From an uncultured Actinomycetes bacterium (GTDB lineage Bacteria > Actinomycetota > Acidimicrobiia > Acidimicrobiales > RAAP-2): a DNA stretch of 34,682 nt. The notes under the pieces are model-generated. The model saw only the letters and a program-made list of their open reading frames with translations. It was not told the DNA's origin and did no database searches. Of this stretch, positions 921 through 34,582 are shown one piece after another. Position 1 is the first letter of the stretch, and each line of letters starts with the position of its first letter. The stretch lies in assembly GCA_903848885.1 (NCBI GenBank), contig CAINHL010000062.1, positions 1-34,682 of the forward strand. The letters are read 5' to 3'. The position numbers were made by a program, and so were the translations under genes.

Positions 921-2372
921 ATGACAGCCAGCCACATAAGCGCCCCACGTCGTTTCCCCGATGGGTTTATGTGGGGAACAGCCACTGCCGCGTACCAAAT
1001 TGAGGGGGCTGTTGCCGAAGATGGTCGCACGCCTTCCATTTGGGACACCTTTAGCCACCACAGTGGTCGTGTCACTAATGGTGACACCGGCGACATTGCC
1101 TGCGACCACTACCACCGCTACGAAGAGGATCTCGACCTCCTCGCCGAGCTTGGAGTCTCCGCATACCGTTTCTCCATCGCCTGGCCCCGTATCCGCCCTG
1201 ACGTCACTGGACTGGCCAACGAACGGGGATTGGACTTTTACAAGCGCCTCATTGCGGGGCTTCACGATCGCAATATCACACCCCTGCCGACGATGTACCA
1301 CTGGGATCTCCCCCAGTCACTCGAGGACGTGGGTGGATGGACCAATCGCGACACCGCGTATCGATTCGCTGACTACGCCGCCACTGTTTTAGAGCGCCTC
1401 GACGGAATCGGGAAGTGGACTACGTTCAACGAGCCCTGGACGAGCGCCTGGCTCGGTTACGCCTACGGTCACCACGCCCCCGGACGTGAAGATATTGGTG
1501 CGGGGGCATCCGCCACGCATCACCTTCTTCTAGCTCATGGATTGGGCGTGGAGGCGTCGCGCGCCATTCGACCCGAAGTCGAAATTGGCTTGACCTTGAA
1601 CTTAGGAACGCTCCGTTCGGGAACCAACGAGCAAGTTGATCGCGATGCCACTTGGCGTGCGGACGGTAACCAGAATCGTATTTGGCTCGACCCTCTTTTC
1701 CGTGGCTCCTACCCTGCGGACATGGTCGATCTTTACAGTGCCTACCCACCTGGTTTTTCGGTAGTACAGGATGGCGATATGGCGACTATTTCTTCGCCCA
1801 TTGACTTCTTAGGGGTCAACTTCTACGGCCCGGGAACCGTCATGGGCGAAGGACGCGAGAGGGAAGCTCGTATGGCCGGCTACAACGTCGGTCCACGGCC
1901 TGAGAGCGACGCCATCAATAGTCTCGGTACCATTGGCGTTTCCACGCCGGGACGACCCGTCACGGCCATGGACTGGGAAATCGACGCCAGTGGTCTGCGC
2001 GAACTTCTCGTACGCATCAAAGACGAATACACCGACATTCCTCTCTACATCACCGAGAACGGTGCCGCCTTTGCCGACTACATCGGCACGGACGGTGCGG
2101 TCCGTGACCCCCAGCGCATTCGCTACCTCGATCAGCACCTCGACGCCTGTTTAGGTGCACTCGAGGATGGTGTCAACCTCAAGGGATATTTCATCTGGAG
2201 TTTGCTGGACAACTTCGAATGGGGATTTGGCTACTCGCGACGTTTCGGTATCGTGTGGATTGACTACGACACGGGGCGCCGTATTCCTAAGAGCAGCTTT
2301 CACTGGTATCGCGGCATCACCGCCAACAACGAACTTCCCGAGTTGAGCACAGCCCTTCAGGCGCGCTACTAA
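921..2372 (+). CDS. GH1 beta-glucosidase
   Basis: A 483-residue cytoplasmic glycoside hydrolase of family 1, a usual full length. The N-terminal signature FMWGTATAAYQIEGA is present. The acid/base glutamate is in TTFNEPW (E171) and the nucleophile in YITENG (E379). The C-terminal block SLLDNFEWGFGYSRRFG lines the sugar-binding site in this family. No signal peptide is present, so it would act on imported beta-glucosides such as cellobiose or laminaribiose. The start is supported by AAGGAG at 907-912, 8 nt upstream. The gene converges on the ABC importer operon and is insulated upstream by a terminator. A 13-bp inverted repeat (876-888, TTCCG-AAG-CGGAA) precedes it and might be an operator, but it does not resemble the LacI-type sites at 7530-7558. 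The exact substrate (glucoside, galactoside or fucoside) cannot be settled from sequence alone. Confidence 0.95.
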   Translation: MTASHISAPRRFPDGFMWGTATAAYQIEGAVAEDGRTPSIWDTFSHHSGRVTNGDTGDIACDHYHRYEEDLDLLAELGVSAYRFSIAWPRIRPDVTGLANERGLDFYKRLIAGLHDRNITPLPTMYHWDLPQSLEDVGGWTNRDTAYRFADYAATVLERLDGIGKWTTFNEPWTSAWLGYAYGHHAPGREDIGAGASATHHLLLAHGLGVEASRAIRPEVEIGLTLNLGTLRSGTNEQVDRDATWRADGNQNRIWLDPLFRGSYPADMVDLYSAYPPGFSVVQDGDMATISSPIDFLGVNFYGPGTVMGEGREREARMAGYNVGPRPESDAINSLGTIGVSTPGRPVTAMDWEIDASGLRELLVRIKDEYTDIPLYITENGAAFADYIGTDGAVRDPQRIRYLDQHLDACLGALEDGVNLKGYFIWSLLDNFEWGFGYSRRFGIVWIDYDTGRRIPKSSFHWYRGITANNELPELSTALQARY

Positions 2373-2430
2373 GAGCCCCCTTCGAATATCGAAACGACAC
2401 GCTGGAACGATCGCGACAATCGAGCGCCAA

Positions 2431-3456
2431 TTATTTCGCTAAAATTTTCACGGCCGTTCGCTGAGCATCGCTGGCGGACAGCCAACAGCGCGCCATATGC
2501 CCATCACCCAGGTCCACTTCGGGAGGTTGATTTCCTCGACAGATATCCATCACCTGAGGACAACGCGGGCTGAAGCGACAGCCCTCGTAGTTAAAGTGCG
2601 TCGAGTCCACGTTGTGCGCGGTCGGCGAGCTTTGCTTCGACAATTTCTCCGGATTGGGTACTGAGTCAACCAGAAGTTGGGTGTAGGGATGGATCGGAGC
2701 ATCCATGACCCTCGTGCCACGTGCACGTTCCACAACTTGACCGGCGTACATCACTGCGGATTCGTCGGCGATATAACGTGCCGACGCAATGTCGTGCGTG
2801 ATGTACATCATCGCCAGCAGACGGGTATCGCAGAGCTCGCGCAAAAGGTTTAATACGCCCAGGCGAACAGACACGTCCAACATGGAGATGGGTTCATCCG
2901 CTAGGAGGACCTTGGGGTTTACCGACAAGCCACGCGCAATATTTACCCGCTGGAGTTGCCCACCAGAGAGCTCGTGAGGGTAGCGATCAAGGTACTCATC
3001 TTGGGGGGTCAAGGCCACACTGGCCAAGACTTCGCGGGCGCGTACGACGACGTCTTCCTTTGGTGTGCCGTGAATAAGAAGTGGGCGCTCGAGGGAGTGC
3101 CGAACCCTCCGCACCGGATTCGCTGAGGCGAAGGGGTCTTGAAGGACGAGCTGCACTTCGCCGGCGTAAGCGGCCGTGCGGCGCTCACGTAATGCGATGA
3201 GTTCTCCGCGAAGCAGTAGTTCACCTTCGGTCGGTACGACAATTCGTGCCAGCATCCGGGCAAGAACAGACTTACCCGATCCGCTCTCCCCTACGATGGC
3301 CAGAACTTCACCCGCTCTTAGCGTGATGCTCACGTCGTCAACGGCTCGCACCCGACGTTTCTTGCGGAACAGACCACTCTCATTACGCCCTGCAAACTCA
3401 CGCGAAAGTCCGCGTGCCTCGAGGACAATGTCGCCACGAGTGACCTGTTCCATCAT
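2431..3456 (-). CDS. Opp/Dpp-type ABC transporter ATPase (second, DppF-like)
   Basis: A 341-residue nucleotide-binding subunit of a peptide/nickel/oligosaccharide (Opp/Dpp) importer. Walker A is GESGSGKS at about residues 56-63, the ABC signature is LSGGQLQR, and Walker B reads LLADEP. The C-terminal oligopeptide-transporter extension includes HPYTQLL and the Cys cluster CRFSPRCPQVMDIC followed by a later Cys. In some Dpp ATPases such cysteines bind an iron-sulfur cluster. The start is ATG at 3456, overlapping the stop of the other ATPase by 4 nt (ATGA), so translation is probably coupled. It is the last gene of the leftward operon. Pairing with a LacI regulator and a GH1 enzyme argues for oligosaccharide rather than peptide import. 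Confidence 0.92.
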   Translation of the reverse strand: MMEQVTRGDIVLEARGLSREFAGRNESGLFRKKRRVRAVDDVSITLRAGEVLAIVGESGSGKSVLARMLARIVVPTEGELLLRGELIALRERRTAAYAGEVQLVLQDPFASANPVRRVRHSLERPLLIHGTPKEDVVVRAREVLASVALTPQDEYLDRYPHELSGGQLQRVNIARGLSVNPKVLLADEPISMLDVSVRLGVLNLLRELCDTRLLAMMYITHDIASARYIADESAVMYAGQVVERARGTRVMDAPIHPYTQLLVDSVPNPEKLSKQSSPTAHNVDSTHFNYEGCRFSPRCPQVMDICRGNQPPEVDLGDGHMARCWLSASDAQRTAVKILAK

Positions 3457-4523
3457 GCACCTTGTCCTATACGAGAAGCTGCCCTACGTGATAACGACAC
3501 GGGAACGACTTCGGTGGATGAGGAGTCGTGAAGCCAGCAGGCCACCGATCGGTGACCGTCTTCAATGGCGACCAATGGTGGTGCTTGCGTACGACAGCGA
3601 TCGTGCGCCGACGGGCAGCGTGGGTGGAAAGCGCAGCCGCCGGGAGGTGACTTGAGGTTGGGTGGCGAACCGGGAATACCCGTCATGCGCACCCGATCAC
3701 CCTGGAGAGGCGGAAAGGAATTCATCAAGCCCAAGGTGTACGGGTGACGTGGAGCGCCGTGCAATTCAACGGCCGGAGCACGCTCCACGATTTCACCGGC
3801 GTACATCACCATGATTTCATCGGCCAATTCCACCAGCAAGGAGAGGTCGTGGGTGATGAATATCATCGCGAAGCCCAGCTTCTGGCGCAGCTCATAGAGC
3901 TCGGACACAATTTCACGCTGCGTAACTACGTCCAAGGCGGTGGTGGGCTCATCCATGATTACCAGTTCGGGACGCAGAGCGAGAGCCATCGCAATCATTA
4001 CGCGCTGGCGTTGACCACCCGACAATTCGTGGGGGAAACGTTGGAGTCGGTCGGCCGCGAGGCCCACTAATGCCAGTAGCTCTATCGCTCGCTCCTGTCG
4101 TGCCGTTTTGGACGACGTGCGATCATGACGACGCAAGACCTCATCGAATTCCTTGCCCACCCGCCGCAGGGGATTCAGGGCGTTGAGCGCACTCTGCATC
4201 ACGATAGAAACCTGTGACCAGCGCACCTGGCGGAGTTCGTCCTCGCTAGCCGTGAGGACGTTGAAGGCTTCCCCATTTCGCTCTCCCGCGAGGTGCAGGG
4301 TCACCTCGCCGGAAGTAATGACCCCCGGCGCGCGCAGCAGGCGCGTCAGACCATAGACCAAGGTGGATTTACCCGACCCGCTCTCCCCCGCCACACCCAG
4401 AACTTGTGAGCGGCCAAGGGAAAAACTAACGTCCGACACGGCGCGGACGGCATCGTCTCCGTAGCCATAATCCACGCTGAAGTTCGTAACGTCCAGCACT
4501 GGCACCAACGAGTCTTCGTTCAC
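3453..4523 (-). CDS. Opp/Dpp-type ABC transporter ATPase (first, DppD-like)
   Basis: A 356-residue ATPase that would pair with the next gene product to power the importer. Walker A is GESGSGKST at residues 46-54, the signature is LSGGQRQR and Walker B is LVIMDEP. The C-terminal extension has HPYTLGLM and the cysteine arrangement CAFHPRCPSAHDRC plus a final Cys before W, as in DppD. The start is GTG at 4523, overlapping the permease stop by 4 nt (GTGA); a G-rich stretch upstream may act as the ribosome site. The family assignment is secure. The substrate is inferred from neighbours. Confidence 0.92.
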   Translation of the reverse strand: MNEDSLVPVLDVTNFSVDYGYGDDAVRAVSDVSFSLGRSQVLGVAGESGSGKSTLVYGLTRLLRAPGVITSGEVTLHLAGERNGEAFNVLTASEDELRQVRWSQVSIVMQSALNALNPLRRVGKEFDEVLRRHDRTSSKTARQERAIELLALVGLAADRLQRFPHELSGGQRQRVMIAMALALRPELVIMDEPTTALDVVTQREIVSELYELRQKLGFAMIFITHDLSLLVELADEIMVMYAGEIVERAPAVELHGAPRHPYTLGLMNSFPPLQGDRVRMTGIPGSPPNLKSPPGGCAFHPRCPSAHDRCRTQAPPLVAIEDGHRSVACWLHDSSSTEVVPVSLSRRAASRIGQGA

Positions 4524-5467
4524 GAGGAAGCCCCCTTCTTCCTCACTTCGCTACGTTGCACGGGAGTGAAACCAAGTCGGGGTCGTCGCGCCATACCCAC
4601 ACGGCGCCGTTGACGTGCCGTGAGTCCGGCGGCGCGTAAGCGTGGATTGATGAACTCATCGATGCCAAAATTAATGAGGGCTAAACTAGTCCCCACCAAG
4701 GCGATGGCGATCCCCGGCGGGGCGAGCCACCACCATTCATTCGCCAGAGCCGCGTTATTGGTCTGCGCCCAATACAACATGGTCCCCCAGTTCCACGTTG
4801 CGACGTTGGTCAGGCCCAAGAAGGCCAGGGTGGTGTAGACGCCTACGGAATACAGAATGGTAAACAAAAAAGACGCGGCAATAATGGGTAGTAAGTTCGG
4901 TCCGATTTCACCCAGCATGATGCGCCACCGGCTTTCGCCAATAATCCGAGCCGCTTCGACGAAATCACGATCGCGCAGCGACATCGTTTGCGCCCGAAGA
5001 ACACGTGCCCCCCAGGCCCATCCGGTCAGAGCGATGACCAGACCCACCACCAAGGGGTTGGCCTGCTCCCCGGCCGGAAGGTAACTGTTAATCACGATGA
5101 GCAGAGGTAGTCCGGGGATTGCCAAAAAAACGTTGGAGAGAAGTGAGAGGCCCTCGTCAGTTCGTCCTCCGATGTAACCGGCTGCCAGGCCGACCACCAA
5201 GGAAATTATGGTCGCCAAGGTTCCGGCGATGAATCCCACCACCATGGTCACACGGCATCCCACGAGAAGCTGTGAGATCACGTCCTGGCCGAGAGTGGTA
5301 GTGCCGAAGAGGTGTTGCCAGCTCGGCCGCAGGTTCGGGACGAAAGATGTGTCATTCGGGTCGTAGGGCGCGATCCACGGTCCGATAAGCGTCAGCAGAA
5401 TGAATATTCCTAAAATACAAAGCCCTACCAAAACCTTGGGCGAACGAGGAACCCTCATCGACCGCAT
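4520..5467 (-). CDS. Opp/Dpp-type ABC permease (DppC-like)
   Basis: A 315-residue inner-membrane permease of the BPD transport family. The N-terminal helix is followed by the DppC hallmark WIAPYDPND. The extracytoplasmic segment FGTTTLGQDVISQLL is also typical of DppC/OppC. The cytoplasmic coupling (EAA-type) loop is DFVEAARIIGESRWRIM. About six membrane segments are visible. The start ATG at 5467 shares one base with the stop of the preceding permease (TGATG), which favours this start over an internal Met three codons later. It would form the channel with the neighbouring DppB-like subunit. Confidence 0.93.
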   Translation of the reverse strand: MRSMRVPRSPKVLVGLCILGIFILLTLIGPWIAPYDPNDTSFVPNLRPSWQHLFGTTTLGQDVISQLLVGCRVTMVVGFIAGTLATIISLVVGLAAGYIGGRTDEGLSLLSNVFLAIPGLPLLIVINSYLPAGEQANPLVVGLVIALTGWAWGARVLRAQTMSLRDRDFVEAARIIGESRWRIMLGEIGPNLLPIIAASFLFTILYSVGVYTTLAFLGLTNVATWNWGTMLYWAQTNNAALANEWWWLAPPGIAIALVGTSLALINFGIDEFINPRLRAAGLTARQRRRVGMARRPRLGFTPVQRSEVRKKGASS

Positions 5468-6447
5468 CAGTTCACCGACGCCGTTCTGGTCCGAGGATCA
5501 AGGACGTAATAAAGGATGTCCGCCAACAAATTCGCTCCCAGCACGGTGAAGGTAATCATTAAAAAGATGCCCTGCAATAGCGGATAGTCCTCATTGCCGA
5601 CTGCACTCACCAAAAGGTTCCCAACCCCGGGATAGTTGAATATTTGCTCCACCAAAAGAGAGCCCGACACCAGCAAGCCAATGGTGAGTGCGAGATTCGC
5701 TACCGACGGAAGGACTGCATTGCGCGCCGCGTGCCACATCACGCTACGGCGCGGAAGACCCTTTGCCACGGCCATAAGGACGAAGTCTTCGCTCACCGTG
5801 GTCACCATCATGTTTCGCATTCCCAACATCCAGCCCGCTAGCGAACTCAGAACGATGGACGTTAAGGGAAGTTCCGCGTAGCGAAGAACGCTAGCAATGT
5901 AAGCCCAACTCCATCCCGGGTTCAGGGATGAGTCGTACGCGCCCATAATAGGAAACAGGTGCAGGGTTCCGGCGAAGAGCATGATCAAAATCGTTCCCAG
6001 GAAATAATAGGGAACACTTTGAAGAAATGTGGCCACGGGAATGATCGAGTCGGCACGTGAACCGCGAGTCCAGCCAAAGAGGACACCCAAGGCGGTGCCG
6101 ATAATAAAACTCACTACCGCGGCCGTACCGATGAGCCCAATCGTCCACCACATCTGCGACGAAAGCACCTGACTCACCGGAGCCGACAGGGTAATGGAGA
6201 CTCCCATATCACCATGGAAAAGTTGCCCCCAGTAGTGACCGTATTGGACCCACATGGGTTCATTGAGACCCTGCCCAAACTGGGCCTTTATGGCGGCAAT
6301 CATTTCGGGGGTAACGCGTCCCTGTAATTTCCCGATGAGTTGCTCAATGGGGTTTCCCGGCATGAGTCGCGGCAAGACAAAATTTGCTGTGATGGTGGCC
6401 CACGCAGTGAATACGTAGATACCTAAACGTCGCAGTGCAGTCCTCAT
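5467..6447 (-). CDS. Opp/Dpp-type ABC permease (DppB-like)
   Basis: A permease of 326 residues from the chosen start. It has the N-terminal helix of DppB (LRRLGIYVFTAWATITANF), the conserved RLMPGNP, the substrate-channel helices, the coupling loop EDFVLMAVAKGLPRRSVMW, and the C-terminal YYVLDPRTR. The open frame extends to 6480, but ATG at 6447 is preferred: it forms an ATGA overlap with the LacI gene stop and begins exactly where DppB homologues begin. It is the first transporter gene after the regulator in the operon. Confidence 0.92.
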   Translation of the reverse strand: MRTALRRLGIYVFTAWATITANFVLPRLMPGNPIEQLIGKLQGRVTPEMIAAIKAQFGQGLNEPMWVQYGHYWGQLFHGDMGVSITLSAPVSQVLSSQMWWTIGLIGTAAVVSFIIGTALGVLFGWTRGSRADSIIPVATFLQSVPYYFLGTILIMLFAGTLHLFPIMGAYDSSLNPGWSWAYIASVLRYAELPLTSIVLSSLAGWMLGMRNMMVTTVSEDFVLMAVAKGLPRRSVMWHAARNAVLPSVANLALTIGLLVSGSLLVEQIFNYPGVGNLLVSAVGNEDYPLLQGIFLMITFTVLGANLLADILYYVLDPRTRTASVN

Positions 6448-7517
6448 GTCAGATCCAGCCCACTGTCGCCGCAGCCACAACTCTTCCGCACCATAAGTTG
6501 CGTCGGCAATATTTGCACTGTCCCAATCTCTATCTGTCTGTTCAGAAGACCCACCACCATGTTCACCGCAGCTACGCCTAGCTCGAAACTAGGTTGCGAC
6601 ACTGTCGTCAAGTTGGATTGGGATTGACTCGCGGCGGCGATGTCATCAAAACCAGTCACCAAAACATCGCGGGGGACCTTTCGACCGCTACGCAGTAGCG
6701 CGCGCACCACACCTAAAGCCATTTGGTCGTTCGCACAGACGAAAACTTCGGGAAGTGCCGATGTGTTCGCCATGCGAAGATCGACCGCATCTTCGGCCCG
6801 TGACAGGGAAAAATCCCCTAGCAAGAAGTTCTCCTGACGCAGAACACCTCCGCAGGCATTCAGCGAAGACTCAAAGGCTTTAAATCGAGCGGCAGCGTCA
6901 GAGCTATCGGGGCTGCCAGTTACAAAACCGAAATCTTTCACCCCATGTACGTCGACCAGGTGGCGTACTACCGCCTGAATTCCTCCGTCATTGTCAACAC
7001 GAATAGTGCCTCCGAATTTCAACTTCCCGGAACCCGAAAGGTGCACGGAGTGCATTCTCTTAGCAATCCGCATGGCGCCGACGTTGCTCACAACGCGGTC
7101 CGACAAAATAATTCCGTCGACCGCACTGTAGAGATGGTGGACGGGATTGGAGGCGGATTCATTTCCCATCTGCACCGCACACGCAAAGAGCGAGTAGCCC
7201 AACTCCGTAGCCCTCCACGACGCACCACGGACGATTCCGTCTGCGTAGAGAACGCTCGCATCGTCATCGCGAATGGGAAAGGCTGAGTGACGATCCTCCT
7301 CGAGGGGATAGGCCAAGCCAATCGACCAACGTCGCCCACCCGACAAACTCCGCGCCGCGGGGCTAGGTACGAAATTGAGTTTTTTCACCGCCGCGTCAAC
7401 GCGATCGCGTGTTTCAGGACGAACCTGCGCCGACCCGTTAAGAACTCGGCTCACCGTAGCAATGGACACGCACGCTACGTCAGCAACGTCGTATATCGTG
7501 GCGGAACCTTTGGCCAT
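6444..7517 (-). CDS. LacI-family transcriptional regulator of the importer operon
   Basis: A 357-residue repressor. The N-terminal helix-turn-helix and hinge (TIYDVADVACVSIATVSRVLN, then FVPSPAARSLSGG) are typical of LacI/GalR proteins. A periplasmic-binding-protein-like sugar-sensing domain follows (about residues 60-345). The C-terminus carries an unusual Cys pair, SCGCG. ATG at 7517 is chosen over an in-frame GTG at 7523 because AGAAGAGG lies 5 nt upstream of the ATG. It is the first gene of the leftward operon. Two LacI-type palindromes directly upstream indicate autoregulation and joint control of the transporter. The effector is probably a mono- or disaccharide from beta-glucan breakdown (inference). 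Confidence 0.92.
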   Translation of the reverse strand: MAKGSATIYDVADVACVSIATVSRVLNGSAQVRPETRDRVDAAVKKLNFVPSPAARSLSGGRRWSIGLAYPLEEDRHSAFPIRDDDASVLYADGIVRGASWRATELGYSLFACAVQMGNESASNPVHHLYSAVDGIILSDRVVSNVGAMRIAKRMHSVHLSGSGKLKFGGTIRVDNDGGIQAVVRHLVDVHGVKDFGFVTGSPDSSDAAARFKAFESSLNACGGVLRQENFLLGDFSLSRAEDAVDLRMANTSALPEVFVCANDQMALGVVRALLRSGRKVPRDVLVTGFDDIAAASQSQSNLTTVSQPSFELGVAAVNMVVGLLNRQIEIGTVQILPTQLMVRKSCGCGDSGLDLT

Positions 7518-7529
7518 TGTCACCTCTTC

Positions 7530-7558
7530 TGTAAGCGATTACATTGTAAGCACTTTCA
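7530..7558 (-). promoter_or_regulatory. Tandem LacI-type operators overlapping the operon promoter
   Basis: TGTAAGCGATTACA (7530-7543) differs at one position from the ideal palindrome TGTAAGCGCTTACA. TGTAAGCACTTTCA (7545-7558) differs at two. The two sites are one base apart with centres 15 bp apart. On the minus strand a good -10 box TACAAT occupies 7548-7543, between and overlapping both sites, with a weak -35 (TTGGTC-like) further upstream. Binding of the repressor here would occlude RNA polymerase. The predicted leader before the ATG at 7517 is about 20 nt. Confidence 0.8.
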
Positions 7559-7633
7559 GGCTAGATGACCAAGCAAATTCAGAATTTGGCAGAATTTTCT
7601 TAGGAACTCGAAGCTCGCATGGACCACAGGCAC

Positions 7634-7664
7634 GAGTCGAGAGTCGAGAGTCGTGAGTCGTGAG
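7634..7664. repeat. 7-bp tandem repeat between the divergent genes
   Basis: GAGTCGA, GAGTCGA, GAGTCGT, GAGTCGT and a trailing GAG run head to tail for 31 bp, about 4.4 units. It lies in the 390-bp gap between the lacI-type gene and the solute-binding protein gene. The rest of that gap holds the operators, an A/T-rich stretch (7758-7780) and no gene that I can support. Confidence 0.85.
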
Positions 7665-7908
7665 CCAAATTCACGTTCGAGATCTCCGTGATTGCGCAAA
7701 AATTGGAGTCGCACACGACGTTCGCACGACCGAGGATGCCACGAAACGATGTAAGAAAACTTTTTCTTTCTTTTCTGAAAGATAACTTGATACGCACCTC
7801 AGCCACCTTCGTGCCGCGAACATGCGATGAAATCTCATTCGTGGCGGCAACTATTCTTGTCCCTACCGTCGGTGCGTTTAGTGCCGCAAGAAAGCGAGAC
7901 GTCCCGCG

Positions 7909-9633
7909 ATGAAAAAATTTCTGACCATGCTGAGCGCCACAATGTGTTTGAGCGGCAGCATTGTGGGCTTCTTGGCAACCACGGGTGGTGCCTCCTCTTC
8001 CGGCCCCACTGTGCTTACCGAAGAAACCAACGTGGGCCAGATATTCACCAACAACTTCAACCCAGCGAACAGCCAATCAACCAGCACACAGATGTCGACG
8101 AACGGTTTGTCTTACGAACCCCTCATTATGTACAACTCGCTGAAGGCAAACTCTTGGAGTCCATGGCTCGCTACGTCGGAGATGATGAACTCGACTGGCA
8201 CCGTAGTCACCTTCACCATGAACCCCATGGCCAGCTGGAGCAATGGTGCTCCCCTCACCGCCAAGCACGTCGCGAACGAATTCAACGCCATGAGCAACAA
8301 CGCCACTTTGAATATTTTTGGTCTCCCCGCGCTCGCGGGACCCGCGACATCGTCCGGAAACAAAGTAACCCTCACCTACGCCACGCCACAGTTCTCGAAT
8401 CTTGAGGCGCTCGGAAGCGTGCTCATTTTCCCCGTGTCCGGCGACGCAGGTATTCCCGCAAAATCAATCATCAAAAGTGGCAATGACAACTTGTCTAACA
8501 AGAACGTGATCGGAAATGGACCGTATGTGCCGACGAGCTACAGCGGTCAACTCATCAAATACACATTGAATCCCCACTGGAAGTTGACGCCCAAGCCCTA
8601 CGTCACCGGGGTTAACATCCCGTACTACGCCTCCAACCAAGCAGCCACGCAAGCTCTCGTGGCGCACAAAATTGACTGGGCCGGAAACGACATCCCTCAA
8701 ATTACGCGCACCTTCGGCGCTGCCGATCCCGCTCATAATCATTTCTATTACCCCGCAGGTTCAACCGTGACTCTCTGGTTCAATACGAGCCAGTCGGCCC
8801 CCGATGGTCAAACGGACTGCCTCGGTGACCCAACTTTTCGCAAAGCTATCTCTATGGCGATCAACCGCAGCCAACTGTCAACTATCGGCGAAACAGGCTT
8901 CGAGGCCCCCGCGACCTCAACCAGCGGGATGACCCCATCCCAGTTGGCGTACCAGGGTTCTTACGCCAATAACATCAACGTTCACGGCTGGACGCCGAGT
9001 CAGGTGTCCTCGTACCTCAGCGCGGCGGGCTACACCCGTGACGCCAAGGGCTACTTCCAGGTCTCGGCGGCCAAGGCTGTCACCGCCACAGGTTTGCCCG
9101 CTCGCACCGAATGTAAATTCAGTATTCAAGATCCTGTCTCCTACTCTGACTACGCCGAAGACATGCAATTAATTGCTTCCCAACTCCAAGCCGTACACAT
9201 CAATGCGTCCTCACAAGGAGTGACCACGGGTCAGTGGAACGCCAATATTTACACTAGTAATTTTGACGCCATCATTCGCTGGGGCGCCGGCGGGTCAAAT
9301 CCTTATTCGCAGTTCCAGAACTGGCTGGATGATCCCGCCAACACGGGCGGATCCACGAATTTCGGTGCCTACATCAACCCGATCGCGATCAACACCTTGG
9401 TCAAGTTGGCTGCGGCCAAACCAGGAACTCCCGCTTTTCAGACGAGTGTGAATACCTTGGCGAGCATTTTAACCACCGGCGTTCCTCAGGCACCGATTCT
9501 CTACGGAGCCGACTGGGATGTGTACACGACGATTCGCTTTACGGGCTGGGTAACCGCCAAGAACCAGTACGCCTACCCGGGACCTGCGGGCAACAGTATC
9601 GCCTTCGTTATTACCAAACTAAAGAAGTCGTAG
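7909..9633 (+). CDS. Extracellular solute-binding protein, family 5 (Opp/Dpp type)
   Basis: A 574-residue binding protein for the divergent ABC importer. The N-terminus MKKFLTMLSATMCLSGSIVG is a Sec signal peptide with probable cleavage after the GGA near residue 28. The Cys at 13 does not sit in a lipobox, so lipidation is unlikely. The family-5 signature appears around residues 95-130 (ASWSNGAPLTAKHVANEF, compare W.dG.plTA.Dv). The mid-protein segment FRKAISMAINRSQL is also typical. Length fits the family (500-600). Family-5 proteins bind peptides, nickel or, in several bacteria and archaea, cello- and other beta-oligosaccharides; the GH1, GH16 and LacI neighbours favour oligosaccharides. 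The ribosome site is weak (GAAAGCGAG well upstream). I see no LacI-type palindrome close to this start. Confidence 0.93.
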   Translation: MKKFLTMLSATMCLSGSIVGFLATTGGASSSGPTVLTEETNVGQIFTNNFNPANSQSTSTQMSTNGLSYEPLIMYNSLKANSWSPWLATSEMMNSTGTVVTFTMNPMASWSNGAPLTAKHVANEFNAMSNNATLNIFGLPALAGPATSSGNKVTLTYATPQFSNLEALGSVLIFPVSGDAGIPAKSIIKSGNDNLSNKNVIGNGPYVPTSYSGQLIKYTLNPHWKLTPKPYVTGVNIPYYASNQAATQALVAHKIDWAGNDIPQITRTFGAADPAHNHFYYPAGSTVTLWFNTSQSAPDGQTDCLGDPTFRKAISMAINRSQLSTIGETGFEAPATSTSGMTPSQLAYQGSYANNINVHGWTPSQVSSYLSAAGYTRDAKGYFQVSAAKAVTATGLPARTECKFSIQDPVSYSDYAEDMQLIASQLQAVHINASSQGVTTGQWNANIYTSNFDAIIRWGAGGSNPYSQFQNWLDDPANTGGSTNFGAYINPIAINTLVKLAAAKPGTPAFQTSVNTLASILTTGVPQAPILYGADWDVYTTIRFTGWVTAKNQYAYPGPAGNSIAFVITKLKKS

Positions 9634-9670
9634 CCCGAGCACTCGCTCGACAATGGAAAGAGGTGGCGCC

Positions 9671-10888
9671 ATGCGTCGCAAGTTAGTTTCGATGTTGGCG
9701 GTATCTTCCGCTCTTCTTCCCGCAGGTCTGATTTCACTCCCTGCCGACGCGGCGGTGGCGGGATCCACTTTTCACGCATGTCGTTCCGGGTCAACCCTCT
9801 CGCACATCAGCGTGCTGTCCCACTCCTGCGCCAAAGGCAGCACCCTTGTAAGTGGCACATTCAATAAAACAAAATTCACAAATGCAAACTTCACCGGAGC
9901 CAATCTGACGGGGGCCAAACTTTCAGGTGCCATCCTTTCGGGAGTTAGGTCGGGGGCGATCAAGGGTGCGGCCAGTACCCTGCCCGCGGGATGGACCCTC
10001 TCGAGCGGGTATCTGCTCGGACCGACGGCTAATTTGTCGAATGCGAACCTCACGGGGGTCAACATGAGTTCTGCGAACCTCTCGGCTGCCAACCTCAGTA
10101 ACGCCACTCTGAGCAGCGACGTCATCACTGGTGCAAACTTTTCTCACGCCAACTTCACGGGACTCACTTCATTTTCCCTCGTCGGCCGACCCAGTGCCGT
10201 TCCTACGGGATGGGGAGTTGCCGCGGGTTACTTGGTGGGACCAGGGGCCACCCTGAGTAGTGCGGACCTCACCAACGCCAATCTCACTGGTCTTAACCTT
10301 TCCGGGGCCAACCTCTACGGTGCGAATCTGACTCGCGCCAATTTCACCGGCACGAATTTGAGTGGCGTATCGATGGCGATGGCGACCTTAACTGGCGCTC
10401 GCTTCGCCGGGGCTAATTTAACTGGGCTTATTTCCTCCTACGAGATTGGTCGTCCGGCGAGCCTTCCGACATCATGGCATCTCATGAGCGGACCTTTTGA
10501 AGGTGGTGTCATTTCGTACCTCGTCGGGCCCGGTGCGCGTATCGGTGGCGCGCACCTGGAAAGTCTGTCGTTCAACGGTTACGACCTCACTGGTATTTAC
10601 TTATCCGGGTCTCACCTTGCAGGAACGAGCTTCGTCGGAGCCACCGTGAAGAATGCTTCGTTCAACAGCGTCAGCATGGGAGCCGCCACCCTGGATCGAG
10701 CGAACTTTACGGGTACTAGTTTTCTCCAGGCGGACTTCAGCGGGGTCAGTATGGCCGGAGCAAACTTTACCAACGCGAACTTCAACGGGGCACGCTTCCT
10801 GAGCGTCAGCGGCATGGACACTGCGAACTTTACGGGGGCGACGTGCCCTAACGGCATACGACACGGCAAGCCCGGAGCCAGCTGCTAG
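9671..10888 (+). CDS. Secreted pentapeptide-repeat protein
   Basis: 405 residues. A signal peptide (residues 1-28, cleavage near PADAAVA) is followed by a Cys-containing head (C37, C53) and long runs of A(N/D)LXX pentapeptides, which would fold as a right-handed quadrilateral beta-helix. The runs are interrupted three times by a related insert of the type LPxGWxLxxGYLVGPGA (about residues 101-118, 174-191 and 262-288). This gives a modular architecture with a period of roughly 73-88 residues. The C-terminus ends in a Cys-bracketed tail (C392 to C405). The start at 9671 is chosen because AAAGAGG lies 7 nt upstream; an earlier in-frame ATG at 9653 has no such site. It begins 37 bp after the solute-binding protein stop, so it may be cotranscribed. 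Function unknown; an extracellular structural or binding role is plausible. Confidence 0.88.
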   Translation: MRRKLVSMLAVSSALLPAGLISLPADAAVAGSTFHACRSGSTLSHISVLSHSCAKGSTLVSGTFNKTKFTNANFTGANLTGAKLSGAILSGVRSGAIKGAASTLPAGWTLSSGYLLGPTANLSNANLTGVNMSSANLSAANLSNATLSSDVITGANFSHANFTGLTSFSLVGRPSAVPTGWGVAAGYLVGPGATLSSADLTNANLTGLNLSGANLYGANLTRANFTGTNLSGVSMAMATLTGARFAGANLTGLISSYEIGRPASLPTSWHLMSGPFEGGVISYLVGPGARIGGAHLESLSFNGYDLTGIYLSGSHLAGTSFVGATVKNASFNSVSMGAATLDRANFTGTSFLQADFSGVSMAGANFTNANFNGARFLSVSGMDTANFTGATCPNGIRHGKPGASC

Positions 10889-28454: not shown

Positions 28455-28499
28455 TTCGGGAGAACTGCGAGACGTTCTCCCGAAAGATATGGGGAGAAC
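28455..28499 (+). promoter_or_regulatory. Two mutually exclusive leader hairpins before guaB1
   Basis: The segment 28474-28484 (GTTCTCCCGAA) can pair perfectly over 11 bp with 28455-28465 (TTCGGGAGAAC), loop 8 nt. Its first 8 bases (28474-28481, GTTCTCCC) can instead pair with 28492-28499 (GGGAGAAC), loop 10 nt, which contains the ribosome site GGGGAG (28491-28496). The first structure leaves the ribosome site free and the second hides it. A possible -10 box, TAGTTT (28447-28452), would start the RNA close to the first arm. Regulation by this switch is inference. Confidence 0.5.
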
Positions 28500-28500
28500 C

Positions 28501-29934
28501 ATGAAATTCACGACCGACTTGCCTCCTTTCGAGCTCACCTACAGCGACGTATTTCTGGTCCCGAGCTACTCCGAAGTGGAATCTCGTTTGGACGTGGACT
28601 TATCCACGCCCGACGGGATTGGAACCATCCCCCTCGTGGTGGCCAACATGAACGCCGTGGCGGGTCGCCGCATGGCCGAAGTCACCGCGCGACGCGGCGG
28701 CATCACCGTTCTGCCCCAGGACATGCCCTTTGACGTGGTCGCCCGCACGGTGGCCGCCGTCCGCGCCGCTGATCCCGTTCTCGACTCCGCCCTCACTCTC
28801 GGACCGAGCGACACCGTTAATGACGCCTTGAACATCGTGCACAAGCGTGCCCATGGTGCCGTGGTGGTGGTGGACGGCGAGCACCGGCCACTCGGAATCT
28901 TCACCGAGAAAGATGGTGACGGACTCGACCGTTTCACCAAGGTGGAATTCGCCATGAGCCGACCCGTGGACACCGTGTCCGCACGACTCAGCCCTACCGA
29001 AATGTATGAGGAACTGAGTCAGCGCCGACTAGGTGTGGCCCCAGTCGTTGACGAGCAGGGCCGCCTCGTGGGCGTAGTGACCCCTACTGGTTGCGTACGA
29101 TCCACTATTTATCGGCCCAACACCGACGATCAGGGTCGACTGAACGTGGCGGTGGCGGTGGGAATCAACGGCGACGTCGCCGGTCGTACCTCGCGCCTGG
29201 TGGAACTTGGCGTTCGCACCATCGTGGTCGACACCGCGCATGGCCATCAACGAAAGATGATTGAAGCCATTCGCCTCGCGCGCGCGGCCGCTCCCTCGGC
29301 CACCATCGTGGCCGGTAACGTCGTCACCGCTGACGGCACGCGAGAACTTCTCGATAGTGGGGCGGACATTGTCAAAGTAGGCGTGGGTCCCGGAGCCATG
29401 TGCACCACCCGCGTGATGACGGGTGTCGGCCGACCTCAGTTCACCGCCGTGGTGGAATGCGCCGCGGCCGCTCGCGCAGCGGGTGGGCACATTTGGGCGG
29501 ACGGTGGTATTCGCCACCCCCGTGACGTTGCGCTGGCTTTGGCTGCGGGAGCCAGCAACGTGATGTTCGCTTCGTGGTTGGCGGGTACCTACGAAAGTGC
29601 CACCGACCTTTTGCACGACGAGCTCGGTCGCAAATATAAAGAGAACTACGGAATGGCGTCTCGACGTGCCGTGACGGGACGCACGCAGGCCGAACACGAC
29701 ATGGAGCGCGCCAAGAAGCAGCTCTTCGAAGAGGGCATCAGTTCTTCGCGTTACTACCTCGACCCTCAACGCCCGGGCGTGGAAGATCTCATCGACCACA
29801 TCATGGCGGGTGTGCGTAGTGCCTTTACCTACGCCGGCGCTCGTACCGTTGTCGAATTCGCCGAGCGCGCAGTGGTGGGTGTGCAGTCAGCCGCGGGATA
29901 CTCCGAAGGGCTCCCCCGTCCCACGAACAGCTAG
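28501..29934 (+). CDS. guaB1: GuaB1-type GMP reductase (IMP dehydrogenase-related, with CBS domains)
   Basis: A 477-residue TIM-barrel enzyme interrupted by two CBS domains (about residues 90-210; [18 protein letters not shown] and [19 protein letters not shown]). The catalytic loop is [11 protein letters not shown] with C301; AMCTTR rather than SICTTR, and the [13 protein letters not shown] flap, match actinobacterial GuaB1. In mycobacteria that family was shown to be a GMP reductase (GMP to IMP with NADPH) with CBS-mediated nucleotide control. ATG at 28501 is preferred over 28489 because GGGGAG lies between them and the protein aligns from [10 protein letters not shown]. The leader hairpins described at 28455-28499 may regulate it. 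Confidence 0.92.
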
Positions 29935-29996: not shown

Positions 29997-30386
29997 TTGA
30001 CATCATGGGGTGACCTCGACGGCTTCGTGTTAGTCATCGTTGCCGTAGACGACAACGTGGTCAATGCCGCCGTGGTGGCCGAAGCACAGCAACGCGGAAT
30101 TTGGATCAACGTGGTGGATAATCCGTCCCTGTGTGACTTCTATTTCACTGCCGTGCATCGCGACGGTGACGTGGTGATATCGGTGTCCTCCTCGGGGTCG
30201 GCGCCAGCCTTGGCGCAGGCGATTCGTGACCGCATCCGATTGCTCCTTCCCCACCACCTCGGCGAGGTCGCAGGCACCTTGCGTCGCGAACGCGATCTCC
30301 TCCACGCCGAAGGTGAATCCACCGAAGATTTCTCGTGGCGTGAACGAATTGAAGAGTTATTGACCGAACCAAAGGCGCGGATTTAA
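29997..30386 (+). CDS. N-terminally truncated siroheme synthase (Met8/CysG-N)-like ORF
   Basis: About 129 residues from a TTG at 29997; the frame is open back to a stop at 29955. The text DLDGFVLVIVAVDDNVVNAAVVAEA, RGIWINVVDNPSLCDFYFTA and VVISVSSSGSAPALAQAIRDRI matches the second half of the precorrin-2 dehydrogenase/ferrochelatase domain. The N-terminal Rossmann part with the GGGxVA NAD-binding loop is absent, and the 62 bp between the guaB1 stop and this ORF cannot encode it. No ribosome site or leaderless promoter is evident. It is either a decaying remnant or a shortened protein with a changed role. Normal lengths are about 200 residues or more. Confidence 0.6.
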   Translation: MTSWGDLDGFVLVIVAVDDNVVNAAVVAEAQQRGIWINVVDNPSLCDFYFTAVHRDGDVVISVSSSGSAPALAQAIRDRIRLLLPHHLGEVAGTLRRERDLLHAEGESTEDFSWRERIEELLTEPKARI

Positions 30387-30399
30387 GCAGTATCGGGAG

Positions 30400-30472
<73 letters not shown>

Positions 30473-30515
30473 GCAAACAACGACTCAGACGCTAACACTC
30501 GTCGCTCCCTTGTCG

Positions 30516-30527: not shown

Positions 30528-32246
30528 GTGACCCAACTTCGTGCCCGCAGTTTCGAACCCAATGACCACCTGACCATCACCTTGCCGGGGGGGCAGCGCG
30601 CGCACCGCGACCACGTCAGCCAGTCCGATCGTGTCGCCAAGACCTTCTACGAGGTCCGCCCCGGAGTGTGGAACTTCGTTGGCAATGGATTTTCGAATCA
30701 AAGCTTCGTCGAGGCTCCCGACGGCATCATCGCCATCGACTCGGGCGAGTCGGTGGAAGAGATGCGTGAAGCCATCCACGAGTTACGCCGGCACACCAGC
30801 AAGCCCATCGTGGCTGCGCTGTACACCCACTTTCACTACGTAGCGGGCACCAAGGCCATTGTGGAAGAGACCGGCGAAGTGAACTTTCCCATTTGGGGTC
30901 ACGAACGCATTGCGGGAAACCTCGTGCGGGCCACCACCGAAATTGGACCCACGTACGCCCGTGGCGTGATTGAGCAATTCGGAATGTTCCTCCCCGACGA
31001 TGGCCCCGACGGTTTGGTGAATGCCGGCCTCGGCCCCTACTGGCGAGACGCCGCCCACGCACCATTCTCGCCAGGGTTTATCGCGCCCACCCACACCTTC
31101 GGTGACCAAGCTGTCACCATCAACGTGGCGGGGCTGCAGGTCGACGTCACCCCCGCACCTTCCGACGCCGACGACTCTGTGACCTTCTGGTTTCCCGAGT
31201 TGGGACTGTGCGTCAACAACGCAGTGTGGCCCGTACTTTTCAATGTTTTTGCCATCCGTGGCGAGGAGTACCGCGACCCTCGGGTACTCGTCAAAGGTAT
31301 TGAGCACATCTTGGGCCTGGCTCCGGAGTACCTCGTCGGTGCCCACGGTCCACCCCTCACGGGACAAGCCGACATCCTGCGGAGGGTCACGGTGTATCGC
31401 GACTCGATTCAGTACCTCTGGGATCAAGCCGTACGCGCCTCCAATGCCGGACTCACCAGCACCGAGGTGGGTTTATCGGTGAGCCTCCCTGACGCGTATG
31501 ACACCGACTACCTGACATCTGAGCTCTACGGGGTAGCCGAACACCACCTCCGTCAAATTCAAATGGGACTCTTCGGTTTCTTCGACGGTGACGAAGCCAA
31601 TCTCTTTCCCCTCCCCACCCCCGAGCGCTCGGCTCGCCTCATTGACGGCTTCGGTGGACGCGCAGAAGTGCGACGCCAAATGCAGGTCGCCATCGACGGC
31701 GATGATCTGCGATGGGCTTTGGAACTAGGAAGTTGGTTAGCCCGTTCCCCCGAGGCCGACGACACCGATCGTTTGCTGCTCGCGACCGCACTTCGCCGCG
31801 TCGCCGAACGTACGCCGGCCGCCAACATTCGTAACTGGTGCATCACCCGAGCACGATCGCTCGATGGTTCTTTGAACTTCAAAAGTTTTTACAAGCAGCG
31901 CATCGCCGAGTTTGCGGTTTTGCTCTCACCACCGTCAACCTTCGTCGACTTACTGCGCGTGATGCTCGACCCCACGAAGATCGCGGGAATCAACTTCTAC
32001 GTCACCTTCGAATTTGATGGCGCACTGGCGTCAGGCTTGCACATTCGTAATTCCATCGCCGCGATTCGCACCGACGGACAGCCGGACGCCACCGTGTCCA
32101 CTTCCCTCGCGACCTGGGCCAAAATTCTGGGTGGCTCGCTCACCTGGAGTGCGGCGGTCGCCGCGGGTGAGCTACGGGTTCGAGGGGATGAGTCGGCCCT
32201 GCGTCGCGCGATGGCGGGCTTCGAGGTTCCAGGACTGCAGGCGTGA
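30528..32246 (+). CDS. Alkylsulfatase-like metallo-beta-lactamase-fold protein with altered metal site
   Basis: 572 residues in the domain order of type III alkylsulfatases: an MBL fold (about 40-300), an alkylsulfatase dimerisation domain (about 300-440) and a C-terminal SCP2-like sterol-carrier domain (about 460-572). Family text includes VWNFVGNGFSNQSFVEAPDG, FAIRGEEYRDP and VGAHGPPLTG. The metal motif HxHxDH, however, reads HFHYVA (H101, H103, then V105 and A106). The region that normally carries AEN with a metal Glu reads VNN. The usual two-metal site should therefore be incomplete. The GTG at 30528 is chosen over a TTG at 30510 because of the leaderless -10 box. The stop overlaps the arylsulfatase start by 4 nt. 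Either a pseudoenzyme or one with different chemistry; the sulfatase neighbour suggests sulfate-ester metabolism. Confidence 0.87.
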   Translation: MTQLRARSFEPNDHLTITLPGGQRAHRDHVSQSDRVAKTFYEVRPGVWNFVGNGFSNQSFVEAPDGIIAIDSGESVEEMREAIHELRRHTSKPIVAALYTHFHYVAGTKAIVEETGEVNFPIWGHERIAGNLVRATTEIGPTYARGVIEQFGMFLPDDGPDGLVNAGLGPYWRDAAHAPFSPGFIAPTHTFGDQAVTINVAGLQVDVTPAPSDADDSVTFWFPELGLCVNNAVWPVLFNVFAIRGEEYRDPRVLVKGIEHILGLAPEYLVGAHGPPLTGQADILRRVTVYRDSIQYLWDQAVRASNAGLTSTEVGLSVSLPDAYDTDYLTSELYGVAEHHLRQIQMGLFGFFDGDEANLFPLPTPERSARLIDGFGGRAEVRRQMQVAIDGDDLRWALELGSWLARSPEADDTDRLLLATALRRVAERTPAANIRNWCITRARSLDGSLNFKSFYKQRIAEFAVLLSPPSTFVDLLRVMLDPTKIAGINFYVTFEFDGALASGLHIRNSIAAIRTDGQPDATVSTSLATWAKILGGSLTWSAAVAAGELRVRGDESALRRAMAGFEVPGLQA

Positions 32247-34582
32247 GCGCACCCACGGGCCTGCCGCACGGCACTCCTGCGTTTGACGGCGAAATCACTC
32301 GACTCATCGCCGACGCCACCGCGCGACGTCTGCACGCACCCGGCGCCCCCGCCGGGGCCCCCAATGTGCTGCTCATCATGTTGGATGATGTGGGCTTTGG
32401 CTCCTTCGGTACCGTCGGTGGCCCCGTGCCCACTCCGGGTTTTGACGCGGTGGCGCAACGTGGTGTTCTCTATAACCAGTTTCACACCACCGCCTTGTGC
32501 TCTCCCACCCGCGCCGCCCTGCTGACGGGACGTAATCACCACTCGGTTCACATGGGTGGCATCACCGAAATTGCGAACTCCTTTCCGGGATACGACAGTG
32601 CCATTCCGCCCGAAGCCGCCACGGTCGCTCAAGTCCTCTCGGCCTCGGGTTACGCCACTAGTTGTTTTGGCAAGTGGCACCTCGCACCCTCCTGGGAACA
32701 GAGCCCCGCCGGGCCCTTCGACCGCTGGCCTACCGGGCTGGGCTTTGATCGCTTCTACGGCATCATCGGGGCCGAAGCGTCGCAATACGAACCCGCCGTC
32801 TACGACCAGACCACGCCCATCAACCCGCACGTCGGTCGCGAGGGATATCACCTGACCGAAGACTTGGCCGATCAGGCCATCACCTGGATACAGCGGCAAA
32901 AAGCTTCCCGGCCCGATCAACCCTTCTTTTGTTATTTCTCTACTCCGGCCGTGCACGCGCCCCATCACGTGCCCGCGGAATGGAGCGACCTCTTCAAGGG
33001 GCAATTCGACGACGGTTGGGACGCCCTCCGCGATCGTATCTATCAGCGCCAACTCGAATTAGGTGTCATCCCCGCGAACACCGCGAACACCTCACGACCC
33101 GAGGAAATACCGTCGTGGGAGGACTACCCCGCGCGTTACCGTCCAGTGGCTGCTCGCTTGATGGAGGTCTTCGCGGGCTTCCTCGCGCACACCGACGCGC
33201 AGATCAAGCGCGTCATTGATTCACTCACTGACATGGGTCTTGACGAGAACACTTTGGTGATTTACATCACCGGTGACAATGGTGCCTCCGCCGAAGGAAC
33301 CATTCACGGCGCGTGGTCCGCGCCGTCATTTCAAAATGGTGTCGAGGAAGATCCCGAGTGGCTCCTCGAGCACATGGACGACTTTGGAACCGCCGCGTGC
33401 GAAAACCACTTCAACGTCGCCTGGGCCTGGGCCTTGGACGCGCCGTTTCAGTGGATGAAACAGGTGGCCTCGCACTTTGGGGGCACGCGCAACGCCATGG
33501 CCATTTCTTGGCCGCAGTCGATTTCTGAGGGTGGCGGCCTGCGCACCCAGTTTCATCACGTCGTGGACATCGCCCCGACCATCTACGACCTGGCCGGCAT
33601 TACGCCTCCCACGCATTACAAGGGGCTAGAACAAATGCCCCTCGACGGCGTCTCGATGGCCTACAGCTTCGCGGCACCCCACGCCCCGAGCACCCATGTC
33701 ACCCAGTACTTCGAAATCTTGGGTAACCGGGCGATTTATCACGACGGTTGGATGGCCTCGTGCTTCCACGGACGCGTTCCCTGGGTGCGATTGGTCGGTA
33801 TGCCCTTTGACGGCGAGCAAGAGCGCTGGGAGCTCTACGACATCACCACGGATTTCTCCCAAGCCGTAGACCTCGCTACGCAATACCCAGAAAAATTGGT
33901 CGAGCTCCAGGAAATTTTCCACCGCGAGGCTCTGCGCAATCAGGTCTATCCCCTGCGGGACCCTTCCGGTCCGCGTCACGGTGAGTTTGCGGTCCCCCAT
34001 TCCTTGGGCGACCTTCGCGAAATGACCTACACCACCGCGCACGTCCGCATGCCGGAAATTTCGGTCATCAACATCAAGAACTGCGCCTTTCGCATTAGTG
34101 CGGACATCTCCATCACTCAGCAGTCGGCTTCGGGGGTTATTGCCTGCCAGGGCGGCAACATGGCCGGTTGGTCGCTCTATCTCACCGAATCCGGTAGCGC
34201 GGCGTTTCATTACAACCTCTACGGTCACGTCCACACGATTATTACCGACGCCCAGATCCTGCCCGCGGGGCGCCACCACCTCGAAGTGGTCTTTGACTAC
34301 GACGGCGGCTTCGGCGCGGGTGGCCAATTTCACCTCTTCGTGAATGGCACCATCATCGGTAACGCTCGCGTCGAAAAGACCGTGCCGCTCGTTTTTTCCA
34401 TGAGCGGCGAAACCTTCGACGTCGGCGTCGATACCGGCTCTCCCGTGGGTTTTTACCCGCACCACTTTCCCTGTACCGCCCAGATTCACGGGGTTACTTT
34501 GACTCGTCTCTCGGACGTCATGGAGTCGGTCAAAGAGGCGGTACGCGAGGGCATGTTCCGTGCATCGCTCAGTACGCAATAG
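32243..34582 (+). CDS. Large arylsulfatase (type I, formylglycine-dependent)
   Basis: 779 residues of the alkaline-phosphatase-like sulfatase family. Metal aspartates are in LLIMLDDVGFGSFG. The formylglycine motif is LCSPTRAALLTGR with C86 as the residue to be oxidised by a formylglycine-generating enzyme. GKWHLAP carries the next conserved Lys and His. YITGDNGASAEG provides late metal ligands. The C-terminal ~150 residues form a beta-rich, LamG-like region (GGQFHLFVNGTIIG) seen in large bacterial arylsulfatases. No signal peptide, so probably cytoplasmic. The GTG at 32243 overlaps the previous stop (GTGA), so expression is coupled to the MBL-fold protein. No formylglycine-generating enzyme is encoded in this window. 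Confidence 0.93.
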   Translation: MSAPTGLPHGTPAFDGEITRLIADATARRLHAPGAPAGAPNVLLIMLDDVGFGSFGTVGGPVPTPGFDAVAQRGVLYNQFHTTALCSPTRAALLTGRNHHSVHMGGITEIANSFPGYDSAIPPEAATVAQVLSASGYATSCFGKWHLAPSWEQSPAGPFDRWPTGLGFDRFYGIIGAEASQYEPAVYDQTTPINPHVGREGYHLTEDLADQAITWIQRQKASRPDQPFFCYFSTPAVHAPHHVPAEWSDLFKGQFDDGWDALRDRIYQRQLELGVIPANTANTSRPEEIPSWEDYPARYRPVAARLMEVFAGFLAHTDAQIKRVIDSLTDMGLDENTLVIYITGDNGASAEGTIHGAWSAPSFQNGVEEDPEWLLEHMDDFGTAACENHFNVAWAWALDAPFQWMKQVASHFGGTRNAMAISWPQSISEGGGLRTQFHHVVDIAPTIYDLAGITPPTHYKGLEQMPLDGVSMAYSFAAPHAPSTHVTQYFEILGNRAIYHDGWMASCFHGRVPWVRLVGMPFDGEQERWELYDITTDFSQAVDLATQYPEKLVELQEIFHREALRNQVYPLRDPSGPRHGEFAVPHSLGDLREMTYTTAHVRMPEISVINIKNCAFRISADISITQQSASGVIACQGGNMAGWSLYLTESGSAAFHYNLYGHVHTIITDAQILPAGRHHLEVVFDYDGGFGAGGQFHLFVNGTIIGNARVEKTVPLVFSMSGETFDVGVDTGSPVGFYPHHFPCTAQIHGVTLTRLSDVMESVKEAVREGMFRASLSTQ

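Follow-up and report, generated by a model that had tools for sequence, protein, structure and literature searches.

A conserved branch of alkylsulfatase-fold proteins with an altered metal site, paired with a type I sulfatase in Acidimicrobiia

Introduction

The type III alkylsulfatases SdsA1, SdsAP, Pisa1 and YjcS share a three-domain architecture, and the alkylsulfatases of known structure in the literature cited here hold two zinc ions. In SdsAP, the ligands of the first zinc are His197, His367, Asp196 and Glu322, and those of the other are His192, His194, Glu303 and Glu322 (PMC5426288). The general acid of Pisa1 is a histidine (PMC3920027). Elsewhere in the metallo-β-lactamase (MBL) fold, the persulfide dioxygenase ETHE1 binds a single iron via two histidines and one aspartate (PMC4383860).

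Here we analyze a gene pair in a window of 34,682 nucleotides, positions 1-34,682 of contig CAINHL010000062.1 from an uncultured bacterium of the Acidimicrobiia. The first gene encodes an alkylsulfatase-fold protein with the motif HFHY where canonical members have HxHxDH, and the second encodes a type I sulfatase.

Results

An alkylsulfatase-fold protein with all three family domains

The first gene of the pair is as follows.

30528..32246, + strand: HFHY-type alkylsulfatase-fold protein, 572 aa, GTG start

A longer frame, started by TTG, opens at 30510. The 572-aa product consists of an MBL-like, a dimerization and an SCP2-like domain. In Pfam it matches Alkyl_sulf_dimr (1.9e-21) and Alkyl_sulf_C/SCP2 (7e-9, 2e-4), with no match to Lactamase_B. 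An AlphaFold2 model, built from 50 homologues and with no metal placed, has a mean pLDDT of 92.3 and a pTM of 0.90. The closest solved structures are Pisa1 (Foldseek, 2.2e-38), YjcS of Escherichia coli (Z 41.0 over 535 residues), SdsAP and SdsA1 (Z 40.7 over 544 residues), and the alkylsulfatase folds as a whole superpose with Z scores of 33-41 across 535-549 of the 572 residues. The protein therefore has the full set of three family domains, which places it in the SdsA1/Pisa1 fold family by domain architecture and bears out the original prediction that the overall architecture, including the dimerization and sterol-carrier-like domains, is kept (Pfam matches; Z of ~41 to YjcS).

Sequence identity to SdsA1, SdsAP, Pisa1 and YjcS is 22-25%. 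The protein shares with them the first two histidines and the last histidine of the metal site, Asn239, Arg244 and the motifs of the dimerization domain. Unlike them, it has HxH--Y for HxHxDH, Asp for Glu303, Asn for Glu322 and Phe for the presumed general-acid His, and shows no signal peptide. Since no N-terminal signal peptide is seen by eye in either this protein or the partner sulfatase, both are probably cytosolic.

Half of the two-zinc site is replaced

The ligand positions of SdsAP (residue names of PMC5426288) were mapped by alignment with canonical proteins of related genomes, which locates the site as follows.

30828..30839, + strand: codons of His101-Phe102-His103-Tyr104 (HFHY), from the sequence and alignments; HxH retained, x-Asp lost, Tyr in place of His
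31161..31184, + strand: codons of Ser212-Thr219 (SDADDSVT); Asp213 lies at the position of the SdsAP ligand Glu303
31218..31220, + strand: codon of Asn231, at the position of the bridging Glu322 of SdsAP; Asn is invariant in the HFHY core
31344..31346, + strand: codon of His273, at the position of the SdsAP ligand His367; kept

The corresponding stretches read YTHFHYVAGT (residues 99-108), APSDADDSVTFWF (210-222), CVNNAVWP (228-235) and GAHGPP (271-276). In the alignment, the canonical HxHxDHFGG corresponds to HFH--YVGG in the HFHY clade, with His101 and His103 at the positions of His192 and His194, Tyr104 at that of His197, and no counterpart of Asp196. The original prediction that HxHxDH is replaced by HFHYVA was thus right in substance, with the refinement that HxH itself is retained, the x-Asp pair lost and the following His changed to Tyr. 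It had also placed VNN where the glutamate of an AEN motif is usual; this is confirmed, the second N (Asn231) being the one at the bridging position, while the first varies between N, H and Q.

Across the seven ligand positions, three are intact (all His), one is changed conservatively from Glu to Asp, and the others comprise a Glu-to-Asn swap, a His-to-Tyr swap and a deleted Asp. What has been lost are the Asp and His ligands of the "cysteine" zinc site together with the bridging Glu; what has been retained is the "histidine" site (His, His and a carboxylate) plus the last His. The complete two-zinc site, that is, HxHxDH with two Glu and a His, is absent from the HFHY clade.

The altered site defines a conserved clade

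A protein scan of one genome per species (84,980 species) found homologues at 49 loci, with 46-63% identity and mostly from Acidimicrobiia and Phenylobacterium/Caulobacteraceae; five further loci were found among related genomes. His101, Phe102, His103, Tyr104, Asp213, Asn231, His273, Asn239 and Arg244 are invariant in 57 of 57 aligned HFHY rows, which include some near-identical sequences. The frame is open at all but one (L073) of ~55 loci, and dN/dS between close pairs is 0.03-0.19, which indicates purifying selection.

The family is also discrete in the two groups sampled with its profile, Actinomycetota and Alphaproteobacteria. In 396 actinomycetotal genomes, members score 818-977 bits, all within the class of the window, and everything else at most 228; in 385 alphaproteobacterial genomes, members score 606-956 bits (the lowest being a contig-cut copy) and sister families at most 359. 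These next-best alphaproteobacterial families nearly all have an intact HxHxDH. More distant HxHY relatives, at ~30% identity, occur on a Vibrio fortis plasmid (L098) and in two other genomes (G690, locus L109; G607, locus L116). All three retain the equivalents of His101, His103, Tyr104, Asp213, His273 and Arg244; inspection of the ungapped x-N motif by eye shows the Asn to be matched as well. A tblastn search of plasmids returned only distant homologues, the V. fortis protein among them. The latter (L098:2827-4665), whose annotation reads alkyl sulfatase dimerization domain-containing, combines the HxHY site with a signal peptide-like N terminus, and its annotated neighbors include no sulfatase.

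In a tree computed without the motif columns, all HxHY proteins form one clade with a support of 100/99, and when each long-branch member is included singly the support is 98-99/97-98. The neighbors of the clade are families with an intact HxHxDH. Because the HxHY proteins group together even without the motif columns, the rewriting of the metal site most likely happened a single time, and the result was then kept. The clade can be delimited by HxH--Y, Asp213 and His273, with Asn231 in addition in the HFHY core, all of which the protein of the window displays. The search for homologues sharing the variant motif that the original prediction had called for thus yielded 57 rows with the same site, and together with the score gap and the clade support it upholds the suggestion of a conserved, distinct clade. 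Conversely, the outcome that was to refute it, a variant unique to one genome and showing decay, is excluded by the clade and the dN/dS values. Pseudogene decay or sequencing error is likewise ruled out by the 57 rows, dN/dS and the open frames.

The closest relatives outside the HxHY clade, at ~28-33% identity, are sister families with an intact site (L103-L108, L110-L115, L117, L122 and L130, mostly from Alphaproteobacteria, and L097 from a Caballeronia plasmid). Like the HFHY protein, they keep the last His and the Asn/Arg pair, with [SG]E[TA]xD as the counterpart of SDADD; unlike the HFHY clade, they have a full HxHxDH and Glu or Asp at both carboxylate positions. Those of L103-L105 have an apparent signal peptide.

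The literature searched, from which most subscription papers were absent, contained no description of the HxHY clade, and no paper was found there that deals with alkyl sulfatase pseudoenzymes or with the alkyl sulfatases of Acidimicrobiia.

The presumed general-acid position is also changed

The residue preceding Asn239 is Phe238 in 57 of 57 HFHY rows, whereas all 18 canonical rows have His there. In our own reading of the alignment, the His of this "HN" motif would be the general acid of Pisa1; a Pisa1-like general-acid His beside the conserved Asn is absent from the HFHY clade, and in the sister families with an intact HxHxDH the position is occupied by Pro. Since the presumed general acid is Phe238 in one group and Pro in the other, the HFHY protein is unlikely to catalyze the reaction of Pisa1. 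Asn239 and Arg244 are invariant in both the canonical and the HFHY proteins compared, which suggests that the ability to bind an anionic group persists. The counterparts of these two residues in SdsA1 are presumably the ones that hold the sulfate.

These residues bear on whether the protein might simply be a standard two-metal alkylsulfatase whose second metal has Tyr104, for His197, and Asn231, for the bridging Glu, as replacement ligands, with the reaction essentially unchanged. Both residues lie exactly at ligand positions and never vary in the 57 rows, and the protein retains His273, whose counterpart is a ligand of the second zinc. On the other side, the Asp of HxHxDH is deleted, Tyr and Asn are both unusual as zinc ligands in MBL enzymes, and Phe replaces the presumed general-acid His at a position that is Pro even in sister families whose HxHxDH is intact, so that the change in chemistry probably preceded the change in the metal site. 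We consider an unchanged two-metal enzyme improbable.

The gene is coupled to a type I sulfatase

Downstream of the HFHY gene lies its partner.

32243..34582, + strand: type I (Cys-type, CSPTR) arylsulfatase, 779 aa; closest solved structures are the Pseudomonas aeruginosa arylsulfatase group (1hdh, 4cxk)
32498..32532, + strand: formylglycine signature region of the sulfatase, CxPxR...LTGR, found by pattern search

The signature reads CSPTRAALLTGR and contains the CxPxR of type I sulfatases. The intact CSPTR is shared with the P. aeruginosa group, compared with which the partner is longer and has a LamG-like C-terminal stretch, and its orthologue subtype tracks the HFHY gene. The last four bases of the HFHY gene, GTGA (32243-32246), are shared with the sulfatase gene, which starts at this GTG. 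This overlap, the CSPTR motif and the widespread adjacency of the two genes agree with the earlier proposal of translational coupling to a type I sulfatase with an intact motif.

An orthologue of the sulfatase (~62-80% identity) adjoins the HFHY gene on the same strand at ~39 loci, and is downstream in all but one (L124), where the order is reversed and the gap is ~150 bases. Among 61 related genomes, an orthologue of at least 63% identity is present in all six that carry the HFHY gene (G000, G013, G016, G022, G058 and G059) and in none of the 55 that lack it, counts that are not independent of descent and co-transfer; a sulfatase orthologue without the HFHY gene was therefore not seen in this set. 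At DNA level, a plasmid search gave matches in the sulfatase part alone, within annotated arylsulfatases. A conserved wider operon was not found. The genes upstream of the HFHY gene vary by group and include those for a 2OG-Fe(II) oxygenase, an MttB-like methyltransferase with an FMN dehydrogenase, an amidase/P450 and a PAC2 protein; apart from the sulfatase, the neighboring genes thus point to no particular pathway.

The association is not universal. The sulfatase is not adjacent, despite room for it, at three actinobacterial loci (L031, L046 and L125) and at the Caulobacteraceae loci. Of 12 Caulobacteraceae-type genomes, three (G067, G069 and G071) have an orthologue elsewhere and the other nine only paralogues of ~38-47% identity. 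The HFHY protein would thus work without the partner sulfatase in many species and, since most Caulobacteraceae searched lack the orthologue, would not be an obligate subunit, a role for which we found no support.

The same distribution matters for the idea that the HFHY protein is a catalytically dead binding protein, in which the Asn/Arg pocket and the SCP2-like domain hold a hydrophobic sulfate ester and hand it over to the sulfatase or scaffold it. Such a role would accommodate the loss of the bridging Glu, of the Asp/His pair and of the presumed general-acid His, the retention of Asn239 and Arg244, and the gene coupling. It fits poorly with the finding that most Caulobacteraceae searched carry the protein but no sulfatase orthologue, and with the invariance of His101, His103, Asp213 and His273 both at 46-63% and at ~30% identity, since the metal ligands of a pure carrier would be expected to drift. 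A dead binding protein is in our judgment unlikely, if a more serious contender than an unchanged two-metal enzyme. For the same reasons, namely four metal-site residues that never vary and Caulobacteraceae without the orthologue, a carrier that binds no metal and a subunit that is obligatory for the sulfatase are the less supported readings; the options in the original prediction had been a metal-free enzyme and a carrier partner of the sulfatase.

Sulfatase maturation in the genus

The formylglycine-generating enzyme FGE (PF03781) has no match in the genus to which the window belongs (37 genomes, G000-G036), while 19 of the 24 genomes that represent the rest of the order, outside the family, do have one. 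A radical-SAM maturase scores above the cut-off in three of the 37, and Cys-type sulfatase signatures occur in many. These counts raise the question of whether the HFHY protein could serve as the formylglycine maturation factor of the adjacent sulfatase in a genus without the usual FGE. We regard this as highly improbable and have rejected it: the HFHY gene is missing from many FGE-less genomes of the genus that have Cys-type signatures, it occurs in Caulobacteraceae with no sulfatase beside it, and G058 has an FGE together with the HFHY-sulfatase pair.

Other features of the window

Just upstream of the pair, a tRNA-Met (CAT) is encoded on the minus strand (30399-30472). At L075, a tRNA-Met (CAT) lies ~320 bases upstream of the HFHY gene, which is not so at most other loci. 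A short plus-strand ORF (29997-30386) matches only positions 66-163 of the profile of the CysG N-terminal part (precorrin-2 dehydrogenase); its NAD-binding N-terminal part is not seen upstream in the three forward frames, and it looks truncated. Before it, 28489-29934 (plus strand) encodes a GuaB1-type protein that passes the NCBIfam GMP reductase model NF052358. In the region 921-10888, genes for a GH1 β-glucosidase, a LacI-type regulator and a pentapeptide-repeat protein of 411 aa are grouped with those of an oligopeptide-type ABC transporter.

Discussion

By its sequence signature, the HxHY branch is a conserved, so far unnamed branch of alkylsulfatase-fold (detergent-splitting) proteins. 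Among the options raised by the original prediction, we favor a one-metal enzyme, because metal-binding residues are retained without exception at four of the seven ligand positions. We put at about even the prospect that the protein is a member of the HxHY clade whose two-metal site became a one-metal site, and that it acts in the pathway of the sulfatase. A single metal ion would sit at the former "histidine" site, bound by His101, His103, Asp213 and perhaps His273, and Tyr104 and Asn231 may shape or complete it. The missing equivalents of Asp196, His197 and Glu322 would remove the tighter zinc site and the bridge. Asn239 and Arg244 could hold an anionic, sulfate-like group while the SCP2-like domain holds a hydrophobic tail. 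The reaction would then be other than the two-zinc C-O cleavage of alkyl sulfates, and might be a hydrolysis, elimination or oxygenation at one metal. It may act on what the co-transcribed cytosolic sulfatase consumes or releases, as part of the catabolism of a sulfated lipophilic compound. The change of the presumed general acid to Phe238 and the loss of the bridging carboxylate count against a one-metal enzyme, and would fit a non-catalytic protein as well.

The proposed center is reminiscent of that of ETHE1, with one metal, two His and one Asp, an analogy only, in which the HFHY residues are those read from sequence. ETHE1 differs in that other residues of the motif are kept, a different subset of ligands is used, and neither a dimerization nor an SCP2-like domain is present.

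A broader reading, which we advance tentatively and with less confidence than the one-metal site itself, is that the HxHY clade represents a new type of enzyme. The fold would have been converted once to a one-metal center (His, His, Asp and possibly His/Tyr) with new chemistry, and in Acidimicrobiia paired with a dedicated type I sulfatase, so that the two genes form a unit that handles a sulfated lipophilic compound.

Since HxHY proteins match Alkyl_sulf_dimr, they are likely to be annotated as alkylsulfatases, a label that would mislead as to mechanism. The sister families with an intact site allow a direct before-and-after comparison with the clade. A branch in which half of the two-zinc site is gone and the rest is fixed, and which in aquatic actinobacteria accompanies a single subtype of sulfatase, points to a reaction of sulfated organics that has yet to be described.
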